Assembly: GCA_016180925.1 (NCBI GenBank)
Contig: JACPAH010000013.1
Coordinates: 1 to 35,563, forward strand
Length of the DNA: 35,563 bases
Origin: Candidatus Aenigmatarchaeota archaeon
GTDB lineage: Archaea; Aenigmatarchaeota; Aenigmatarchaeia; GW2011-AR5
Reading direction: 5' to 3'
In this document: piece after piece, positions 5,826 through 25,223 of the stretch
How the letters are laid out: every line of letters starts with the position of its first letter
Position numbering within the stretch: the first letter of the stretch is position 1
Made by a program: the position numbers and the translations under genes
The notes under the pieces: model-generated
Databases searched by the model: none
What the model was told of the DNA's origin: nothing
Seen by the model: only the letters and a program-made list of their open reading frames with translations

Positions 5826-6089
5826 GGATTTAAATACTTTCCACTCGTCATATTTTCAGTGGTTAAATCTGATGGAAGGAAGGGTTAATTCTGAGGGTTT
5901 CGAGGCTTTATCAGAAGGGTTAATTCTGAACCATCCCTGCAAAGGAGCTTGCTCCTTTGAGGCCACGGAGAACAACGTTCTCCAGTGGTTTTGACCATAA
6001 TAAATCCTCAAAGAACGCATGTTCTTTGGGATGTCAAAGAGCAAAGCTCTTTGAACATTGCGGCAACGCATGAATGGAGGAATAGAAAA
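5826..6089 (+). promoter_or_regulatory. Promoter and multi-hairpin leader of the TRAM gene
   Basis: ATTTAAATA at 5828-5836 predicts transcription from about 5860, leaving a leader of roughly 230 bases. A 16-base direct repeat, GAAGGGTTAATTCTGA, occurs at 5879-5894 and 5914-5929; its TTCTGA/TCAGAA parts allow two exclusive pairings. Consecutive hairpins follow: CAAAGGAGC/GCTCCTTTG (5940-5959, loop TT), CCAC-GGAGAAC/GTTCTCC-GTGG (5963-5988), ATCC-CAAAGAAC/GTTCTTTG-GGAT (6004-6032), ATGT-CAAAGAGC/GCTCTTTG-ACAT (6031-6058) and TGCG-GCAA-CGCA (6059-6070, a GNRA-type loop). GGAGG at 6076-6080 then serves ATG 6090. A 40-codon frame (5872-5994) also crosses the first hairpins. No obvious protein gene is in this stretch. 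Confidence 0.7.
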
Positions 6090-6467
6090 ATGTACGGAGA
6101 CAGAAGAGGCGGAGGAGGCCACGGATTTGGTGGCGGAAGAGGATTCGGCGGAGGCGGCCGAGGTTTCGGTGGCGGAGGCGGAGGCGGATTCCAGCAGAGG
6201 GAAAAGCCTGTAAAGATCGGCGAGGAATACGACGTCAAGATAACTGACGTTGGCGCCAAGGGCGACGGTATAACGAAGGTAAACAACTTCATAATATTCG
6301 TCCCCAACACGCAGAAGAACGAGGAATGCAAAATCCGGATAAAGGAAGTTGCAAACAAGTTCGCAATAGCCGAGAAAGTCGGTGCCGGGGAAGAGGGCGG
6401 CTCGCAGGAAGCTGGAGGAGACGATGCCCAGGAATACGGCGCTGACGAAGACAAGCAGGAAGAGTAA
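6090..6467 (+). CDS. TRAM-domain protein with Gly/Arg-rich N-terminus
   Basis: A small RNA-binding protein. Residues 1-34 are an RGG/FGGG-type low-complexity segment, residues 40-98 form a TRAM domain (KIGEEYDVKITDVGAKGDGI ... VPNTQKNEECKIRI) and residues 99-125 are an acidic tail. Single-TRAM proteins are common in archaea and act as cold-shock-like RNA chaperones in methanogens. The Gly-rich arm resembles those of bacterial and plant cold-shock RNA-binding proteins and may promote RNA annealing or condensation. ATG 6090 was chosen for its GGAGG nine bases upstream and because upstream in-frame codons fall inside the hairpin leader. The long structured leader suggests control at the RNA level, possibly by the protein itself or by temperature; that is inference. 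Confidence 0.87.
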   Translation: MYGDRRGGGGHGFGGGRGFGGGGRGFGGGGGGGFQQREKPVKIGEEYDVKITDVGAKGDGITKVNNFIIFVPNTQKNEECKIRIKEVANKFAIAEKVGAGEEGGSQEAGGDDAQEYGADEDKQEE

Positions 6468-8260: not shown

Positions 8261-8427
8261 TGAAGAGGAACATAGTTCCTCTATACTCAAAGACATTAAT
8301 TTTTGTACAAATAATGTCTTTGGTATATCTGAATGACATTATAATGTTCAATAAATTATGTCATTCAGTATATATCCAAAAGGAGTGCAACTCCTTTGCG
8401 GATATGCACTCAAGGTGTAGAAAATGA
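8260..8427 (+). CDS. Leader-spanning open frame between spt4 and eS24 (doubtful as a protein)
   Basis: A 55-codon frame starts at an ATG overlapping the spt4 stop (TGATG) and ends at a TGA overlapping the eS24 start (ATGA at 8424-8427). It runs through all four hairpins of the leader without a stop. The peptide starts MKRNIVPLYSK and ends MHSRCRK; I recognise no domain. The double overlap is what a translationally coupled leader cistron would look like, since ribosomes crossing it would unwind the hairpins. It could still be chance, because the DNA is under hairpin constraint rather than obvious protein constraint. Confidence 0.3.
   Translation: MKRNIVPLYSKTLIFVQIMSLVYLNDIIMFNKLCHSVYIQKECNSFADMHSRCRK
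8261..8423 (+). promoter_or_regulatory. Multi-hairpin leader of the eS24 gene
   Basis: TTTAAAAG at 8248-8255 is a possible TATA box in the end of spt4. Four hairpins follow: AGAGGAAC/GTTCCTCT (8264-8282, loop ATA); TATAC-CAAAGACATTA paired with TAATGTCTTTG-GTATA (8282-8327, one bulge, 16 bp); CTGAATGACAT/ATGTCATTCAG (8329-8368); and ATATCC-AAAGGAGT paired with ACTCCTTT-GGATAT (8372-8405, loop GCA). AAGGTG at 8412-8417 is the ribosome site for ATG 8424. Ribosomal protein leaders often bind their own product, which is a testable model here. Confidence 0.7.
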
Positions 8428-18050: not shown

Positions 18051-18234
18051 TATGAGGGGAACTATTTGTATTCAACTTTTATGTACAACGGCATTGAAAA
18101 CCTCCAATGGAACGAAGTTCCATTGATGGATGAAACACAATGCCGTTGACATGACAAAGATGTTAGAAACCGGCATCTTTAGATGCCGGAGATATAAACA
18201 TCTTTGCTCATAGTTGCGCAATATCTGTGATAAG
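18051..18234 (+). promoter_or_regulatory. Nested-hairpin leader of the 2-oxoacid oxidoreductase operon
   Basis: Candidate TATA boxes are TTTAAAT (18022-18028) and AATATAAG (18043-18050). Two double hairpins follow. The first has an outer stem CAACGGCATTG/CAATGCCGTTG (18086-18096 with 18138-18148) around CAATGGAAC/GTTCCATTG (18105-18125, loop GAA). The second has an outer stem CAAAGATGTT/AACATCTTTG (18155-18164 with 18197-18206) around CCGGCATCT/AGATGCCGG (18170-18189, loop TT). Two short frames coincide with them: 18081-18149 (22 codons) and 18151-18213 (20 codons). The oxidoreductase starts 21 bases later. Confidence 0.68.
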
Positions 18235-24903: not shown

Positions 24904-25223
24904 CATTATCAGCCAGCTTTTCCTGACCGCTCGGTTTATAAGTGTTTTCTTCAATTAAGATAATTCCCATTTAAATCCTCGACTCCAAGATAATTACTTA
25001 TGAAAACGCAACAGCCGTTCCGTTTAATTGCTCAAAGGACTGTCAATGACCACTGTCTAAAGACAGTGGCTTGTTCAAGTACAACAAGTTCATTGAGCAT
25101 CTCAGAATTCCACTCTACCACCATTTCAAAACGGTGGAATTCTGCAGATTTCAATCCTTTAGCATGTCGAAAAGCAGAGCTTTTCGGACATTCCGAAACA
25201 GAGATTTATGAGGTGTTTCAGAA
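24904..25223 (+). promoter_or_regulatory. Promoter and branched multi-hairpin leader of the PHP gene
   Basis: ATTTAAAT at 24969-24976 predicts transcription from about 25000. Pairings: outer stem GCT-AAAGGA (25030-25039, C33 bulged) with TCCTTTAGC (25155-25163). Inside it is a perfect three-way junction: TCAATGA/TCATTGA (25043-25049 with 25090-25096) holding CCACTGTCT/AGACAGTGG (25050-25069, loop AA) and CTTGTT/AACAAG (25070-25088). Then CAGAATTCCAC/GTGGAATTCTG (25103-25144). After the outer stem, TGTCGAAAAGC/GCTTTTCG-ACA (25165-25190) competes with TTTCGG/CCGAAA (25182-25198). GAGGTG at 25209-25214 serves ATG 25224. The first 65 bases of the gap hold nothing I recognise. Confidence 0.7.

Follow-up and report, generated by a model that had tools for sequence, protein, structure and literature searches.

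The tram Locus

The window (the whole stretch of DNA analysed, 35,563 nucleotides) is contig 1 of a Candidatus Aenigmatarchaeota archaeon assembly that totals 844 kb in 41 contigs and is 81% complete. The gene at 6090..6467 (+) encodes a standalone TRAM protein of 125 aa (PF01938, E 3.6e-12) whose start is rich in Gly/Arg and whose tail is acidic. The assembly holds one copy of this gene, here called tram. Relatives of the protein found by name belong to Candidatus Aenigmatarchaeota, archaeon GW2011_AR5 among them. According to our home-made gene caller, tram is preceded by genes for a glycosyltransferase and an Ogg-type glycosylase and followed by genes for a PIN protein, a pyrophosphatase, an Rpb7-like protein and Spt4. 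The features of the leader, including matches to a covariance model (R1) of the repeated unit described below, are as follows.

5829..5836 (+): TATA-like box TTTAAATA, read in the sequence; expected transcription start ~5857
5859..5867 (+): 5' arm of P1, a TRAM-specific basal stem; mean pair probability 0.94, in the eight leaders tested
5872..5994 (+): upstream ORF of 40 codons; its start motif, A/GTG(G)AAGG, is near-constant in family leaders
5879..5894 (+): 16-base direct repeat, copy 1, exact match
5914..5929 (+): 16-base direct repeat, copy 2, exact match
5936..5988 (unstranded): module 1, hairpins 1 and 2; R1 33.6 bits, E 1.4e-5
first half of module 1: lower stem 5936-5938/5960-5962, bulge 5939, hairpin 5940-5959
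second half of module 1: lower stem 5963-5966/5985-5988, hairpin 5967-5983, bulge 5984
5990..5998 (+): 3' arm of P1, from the fold and the comparison of leaders
6005..6057 (unstranded): module 2, hairpins 3 and 4; R1 55.5 bits, E 4e-11
first half of module 2: lower stem 6005-6007/6029-6031, bulge 6008, hairpin 6009-6028
second half of module 2: lower stem 6032-6034/6055-6057, hairpin 6035-6053, bulge 6054
6059..6070 (+): hairpin 5, 4 bp with a GCAA loop; -4.3 kcal/mol at 37 °C folded alone
6076..6080 (+): Shine-Dalgarno (SD) sequence GGAGG, predicted to be mostly unpaired

The TTTAAATA stretch is also kept in the congener and lies at the same position ahead of other family TRAM leaders. Its position suggests that transcription starts at about 5857, 5' of the hairpins, giving a leader of about 230 nt, and a long structured tram leader is likely. 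The 264-nt leader stretch folds at -91.4 kcal/mol, compared with -65.6 ± 5.1 kcal/mol for 200 shuffled sequences (z = -5.06), none of which folded as well. Upstream leaders with apparent inverted repeats were also seen by eye at TRAM genes of other archaea (L025, L028, L029).

A first-pass annotation of this DNA had listed five hairpins and an exact 16-base direct repeat upstream of them, and both descriptions hold. Four of the hairpins are strong when folded singly (-11.2 to -13.3 kcal/mol at 37 °C); at the place of the fifth, the congener has a 7-bp hairpin. The two copies of the repeat pair largely with each other in the minimum-energy fold. Absent from that annotation were the lower stems with single bulges in hairpins 1–4, the likeness of hairpins 1+2 to hairpins 3+4 as two units, the stem 5859-5867/5990-5998 around the first unit, and the recurrence of such units throughout the genome. 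With these additions, the tram leader is best read as a composite of two dispersed modules and a separate gene-specific stem, P1. A known Rfam family for the leader was ruled out, with 0 matches at the gathering score in the window, where no tRNA was found either.

A Dispersed Twin-Hairpin Module

Four of the five leader hairpins constitute two copies of a dispersed module of ~53 bp. It comprises two adjacent hairpins of 7–9 bp standing on lower stems of 3–4 bp, with single bulged bases in mirror-image positions, one lying 5' of the first hairpin and the other 3' of the second. Its two halves take the same form once the second is reverse-complemented, which makes the module an inverted dimer; the unit is TNNx-[hairpin]-N'N'A, and both pairs in the window fit this geometry. 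One big outer stem around every module was also considered and rejected, the longest outer complementary word barely exceeding that of shuffled pairings.

The genome contains 64 occurrences of the pattern CAAAG..CTTTG and 11 of its reversed control. In the 350 kb analysed of the organism's own DNA, 179 perfect hairpins have stems of 8 bp or longer, 155 of them intergenic; concatenated intergenic DNA (86 kb) holds 153, compared with 6–21 in five order-2 simulations. Close pairs of hairpins number 45 in intergenic DNA and 0 in the simulations. Their typical internal spacing is 6–7 nt, and the exact mirrored-bulge form was found in 26 of 48 close pairs in the 350 kb.

Model R1 gave 119 matches (65 merged places) in the 350 kb of own DNA, a density not to be extrapolated because the contigs were mostly picked for CAAAG..CTTTG matches, and 86 matches (44 merged places) in 405 kb of the congener. 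Matches are symmetric on both strands; merging by hand or by a 15-nt rule yielded 109 and 110 places. With rough E-values, the module was detected in at least 36 of 115 relatives at E ≤ 0.001 (best 50 candidates per genome scored) and in at least 34 of 156 genomes of the phylum at E ≤ 1e-4 (best 37 scored), including at least 18 of the 19 of the family. Among 21 other genomes reached through their TRAM loci, 18 had no R1 match and three, all haloarchaea, had weak ones (best 38.3 bits). The haloarchaeal matches are also close hairpin pairs, most of them by eye without matching lower stems; loci L256-L259 (Haloarcula, Halapricum) carry close pairs of 19–21 nt triloop hairpins 6 nt apart.

Modules are mostly intergenic and often lie beside TA dinucleotides, with some enrichment 5' of genes. 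Divergent gaps hold 25 of them (~17 expected) and convergent gaps 10 of the 92 placed (~18 expected); 22 of the 25 in divergent gaps are within 100 nt of a start codon.

Other hairpins were noticed as well. Similar single hairpins occur in the window at 8264-8282 and 8379-8397, in the gap 3' of the Spt4 gene. A second dispersed type, with CC..GG ends and TTTA, TAAA or TTCA loops, is found in the window at 18170-18189 and 25050-25069, and at L122 16918 and L129 11980. At the last of these, the same gap of the congener has a hairpin whose stem is largely different yet paired.

Signs of Mobility

The modules are apparently mobile. In 94 syntenic gaps compared between the organism's own genome (G000) and its congener (G001), 15 hold a module, which is present in one species only in 13 cases and in both in two. 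A few weak matches are doubtful; at L118 16231, the hairpin also stands in the congener though only one side scored. In the same comparison, no clean empty site or target-site duplication could be defined for solo modules.

In G005, a genome of the same family, the 20 module copies read are near-identical inside and have widely differing flanks, as is typical of dispersed miniature inverted-repeat transposable elements (MITEs). The end sequence TATAGTGRACCAA occurs 47 times forward and 45 times in reverse, with 0 occurrences of the control, and many of these ends bound elements of 97 or 149 bp. The two forms differ by a 52-bp module, which in the long form exactly separates the two TA halves of the TATA seen in the short form, and further elements are nested at TA. 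Terminal inverted repeats (TIRs) with TA ends, another MITE trait, belong to this composite four-hairpin element only; in G000 and G001, 8 of 109 modules are flanked within 75 nt by both a left-hand TATAG and a right-hand CTATA, against a background of 1.1%. The distance between inward-facing TIR neighbours in G005 is usually 97 or 149 bp and reaches ~0.5 kb by eye; no transposase-sized element was made out between them. Y1_Tnp (PF01797), the only transposase family searched for, is absent from G000, G001, G004 and G005.

In this reading, some modules would stand by themselves and others form the core of a miniature transposon-like element with four hairpins; copies probably spread by insertion or recombination, as the presence/absence pattern and the identical copies suggest. 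Among the open-licence papers searched for DPANN or Aenigmatarchaeota MITEs and repeats and for tandem hairpin repeats, none describes this element in its title or the opening of its abstract; the accessible part of the RepRanger paper (PMC12306157) mentions neither DPANN nor Aenigm.

At two of the compared sites a module is present in both species. Module 2 of tram is common to both congeners, with one two-sided paired change and 21 unchanged pairs, while module 1 is absent at this place in the congener. A second shared module lies 23 nt before the start of a gene that we take to be ftsZ from its GGGTGTGSAP motif (L125 15337-15392 and L201 6804-6859 in the two congeners), so that the shared orthologous modules stand 20–35 nt before start codons. 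They have been kept in both species as if useful there, and local co-option as leader hairpins is possible. Being 3' of the expected tram start, the tram modules should be transcribed and are predicted to fold, in a way that would leave the SD free.

Maintenance at the DNA or RNA Level

Watson–Crick pairs make up 97% of the scored pairs (2235 of 2305 at 110 places, with 115 further cells gapped), in a census biased against any mismatch because R1 was trained on near-perfect Watson–Crick copies. This bias should not differ between G–U and A–C once the modules are oriented by gene. Where a start codon lies no more than 150 nt away (63 places), the sense strand carries 12 G–U, 11 A–C and 15 other mismatches. 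RNA-level selection should favour G–U; the lack of a sense-strand G–U excess therefore favours maintenance of the arms at the DNA level. At the orthologous modules, two-sided paired changes affect 1 of 22 pairs at tram and 5 of 22 at ftsZ, where two one-sided changes were also found. Complementarity of the arms may be kept through recognition of the folded DNA or through palindrome repair at replication.

These features can be gathered into a broader proposal, which is tentative and rather less probable than not: a DPANN mobile element recognised by shape instead of sequence. A recombinase or transposase would read the folded twin hairpins with their mirror bulges, the stems would drift while their complementarity is kept, nested arrays would form, and modules, as at tram and ftsZ, would be co-opted locally as leader hairpins.

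The P1 Stem and the Upstream ORF

P1 begins at the expected 5' end of the mRNA and was found in all eight family leaders tested, a set that leaves out G004 (no clear P1) and G009 (near-identical to G014). Across the eight leaders its third pair is U–A, U–G or C–G and its sixth G–C or A–U. G–U accounts for 14 of its 64 pairs, in a helix search that allowed G–U, unlike in the modules. The P1 pattern was found in 5 of 14 genomes, one of them with an unrelated sequence and four with TRAM-leader sequence; in three of these four it lies directly before tram and in one near a contig end. The sequence pattern occurs once per genome in four genomes of the genus g10. P1 thus displays the covariation, the G–U tolerance and the link to one gene that mark a cis-regulatory RNA, and it is read as tram's own leader element. 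Because the family leaders keep P1 with paired changes, leader-based control of tram, and hence regulation through P1, is possible; P1 would probably act on mRNA stability or translation.

A short ORF with an ATG or GTG start inside P1 is present in all eight leaders. It ranges from 6 to 40 codons, and the encoded peptides are dissimilar; the G014 leader departs from the near-constant start context. Either translation into a leader peptide or a role as an RNA motif is possible.

Alternative Explanations

From the hairpins and the neighbouring RNA chaperone gene, the first-pass annotation had proposed a cold-shock style leader, whose hairpins would sense temperature or be bound by the TRAM protein, which would thereby autoregulate tram. 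The long structured leader ahead of such a gene, the retention of module 2 in the congener and the published activity of a Methanococcus TRAM protein, which unfolds 5'UTR hairpins of 9–13 bp in an anti-terminator-like manner according to the available text of that study (PMC6705878), all agree with this proposal; by analogy, hairpin unfolding by the TRAM protein is a plausible partner activity for the leader. The structured leader itself therefore stands, with its strong fold and conserved P1, but its hairpins are dispersed over the genome and missing from the eight other family TRAM leaders (two of the eight loci have a module ~900 nt upstream or 3' of tram), so they are not specific to tram. 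As to pairing in orthologous leaders, suggested in the annotation as a check, that of P1 is preserved with paired changes, and module 2 is kept in the congener. Thermosensing is not supported by the modelling. The probability that the tram SD is unpaired is 0.85 at 5 °C, 0.88 at 37 °C and 0.64 at 65 °C, and the SD is mostly unpaired at 5–80 °C in both species, so neither the modules nor P1 hide it; identity as an RNA thermometer was rejected on this ground. Methanolobus TRAM leaders, in the portion of the report consulted (PMC5572242), likewise show no temperature-dependent alternative 5'UTR structures. Since G–U is also not in excess in the modules, a cold-shock style leader is unlikely, and the leader hairpins are probably not a thermometer made for tram. 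Equally improbable is a global RNA regulon, in which the modules are transcribed hairpins recognised by one shared RNA-binding protein, TRAM being a candidate. The closeness of divergent-gap modules to start codons and the similar placement of the tram and ftsZ modules speak for it, but the matches are strand-symmetric, sense-strand G–U is about as frequent as A–C, presence and absence turn over rapidly, and convergent gaps are occupied too.

Two further readings fare less well. Repetitive extragenic palindromes (REP/BIME) mobilised by a RAYT (IS200-like) transposase would explain inverted pairs of short imperfect hairpins that are intergenic, high in copy number and preceded by a short 5' tag. 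The tag, however, is not constant here (TCTG 60, TGTG 29, TCCT 16 and TGCT 15 among 205 aligned matches), and tag and arms differ between copies while pairing is kept; the four genomes without Y1_Tnp are among those with the highest counts. Identity with RAYT/REP was rejected on the varying tags and this absence, leaving the idea very improbable. Transcription terminators of clustered hairpins, proposed for bacteria in the accessible part of one paper (PMC8355165), would agree with the adjacency of the hairpins, but T-runs stand beside 1 of 212 module ends (2.6% background), and terminator identity was rejected; moreover, convergent gaps hold fewer modules than expected, and tram itself has two copies after its TATA box and ahead of its start codon. 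This is the least credible of the readings considered. With a probability of roughly three in four, the whole is best explained by a dispersed, apparently mobile twin-hairpin module lying in the leader together with a separate tram-specific P1.

Significance and Comparison with Known Systems

If the mobile-module reading is true, an archaeal phylum about which little is known carries an abundant hairpin element in its small genomes, and the strict geometry of the element points to an undiscovered enzyme. The case also warns that striking arrays of leader hairpins may consist of dispersed DNA elements rather than riboregulators, for which counting G–U against A–C mismatches on the sense strand offers a simple check. 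With P1, in turn, an archaeal gene for an RNA chaperone has a defined leader RNA that can be put to the test.

The tram leader resembles cspA-type leaders and RNA thermometers in being long, structured and placed before an RNA chaperone gene; it differs in that the SD is not hidden at the modelled temperatures and the hairpins are not gene-specific. REP, BIME and REPIN sequences, as characterised in the available sections of two papers (PMC3116915, PMC2817692), are likewise short imperfect palindromes in inverted pairs, intergenic and of high copy number. The module differs from them in having no conserved sequence, mainly its fold being kept, and in the absence of Y1_Tnp/RAYT in the four genomes searched. 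RUP of pneumococcus and other TA-ended prokaryotic MITEs share TIRs with TA ends and a non-autonomous nature, as far as the accessible text describes them (PMC2229807). The modules differ from these in being nested hairpins, and an autonomous partner was found neither between the G005 TIRs nor as PF01797 in the four genomes.

The end sequences of the G005 element may resemble those of Correia elements. Correia/NEMIS elements of Neisseria are intergenic miniature mobile elements, often 5' of genes, with hairpins and TA ends, and come in two size classes of ~107 and ~155 bp with an internal difference of ~50 bp (PMC2229807 and PMC2649163, in the sections available), to which the 97- and 149-bp forms of G005, differing by the 52-bp module, may be compared. 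Common descent is not claimed. The present element differs in its archaeal host, in its inner twin hairpin with mirrored bulges, which also stands alone at many places, and in module stems that vary freely between copies.
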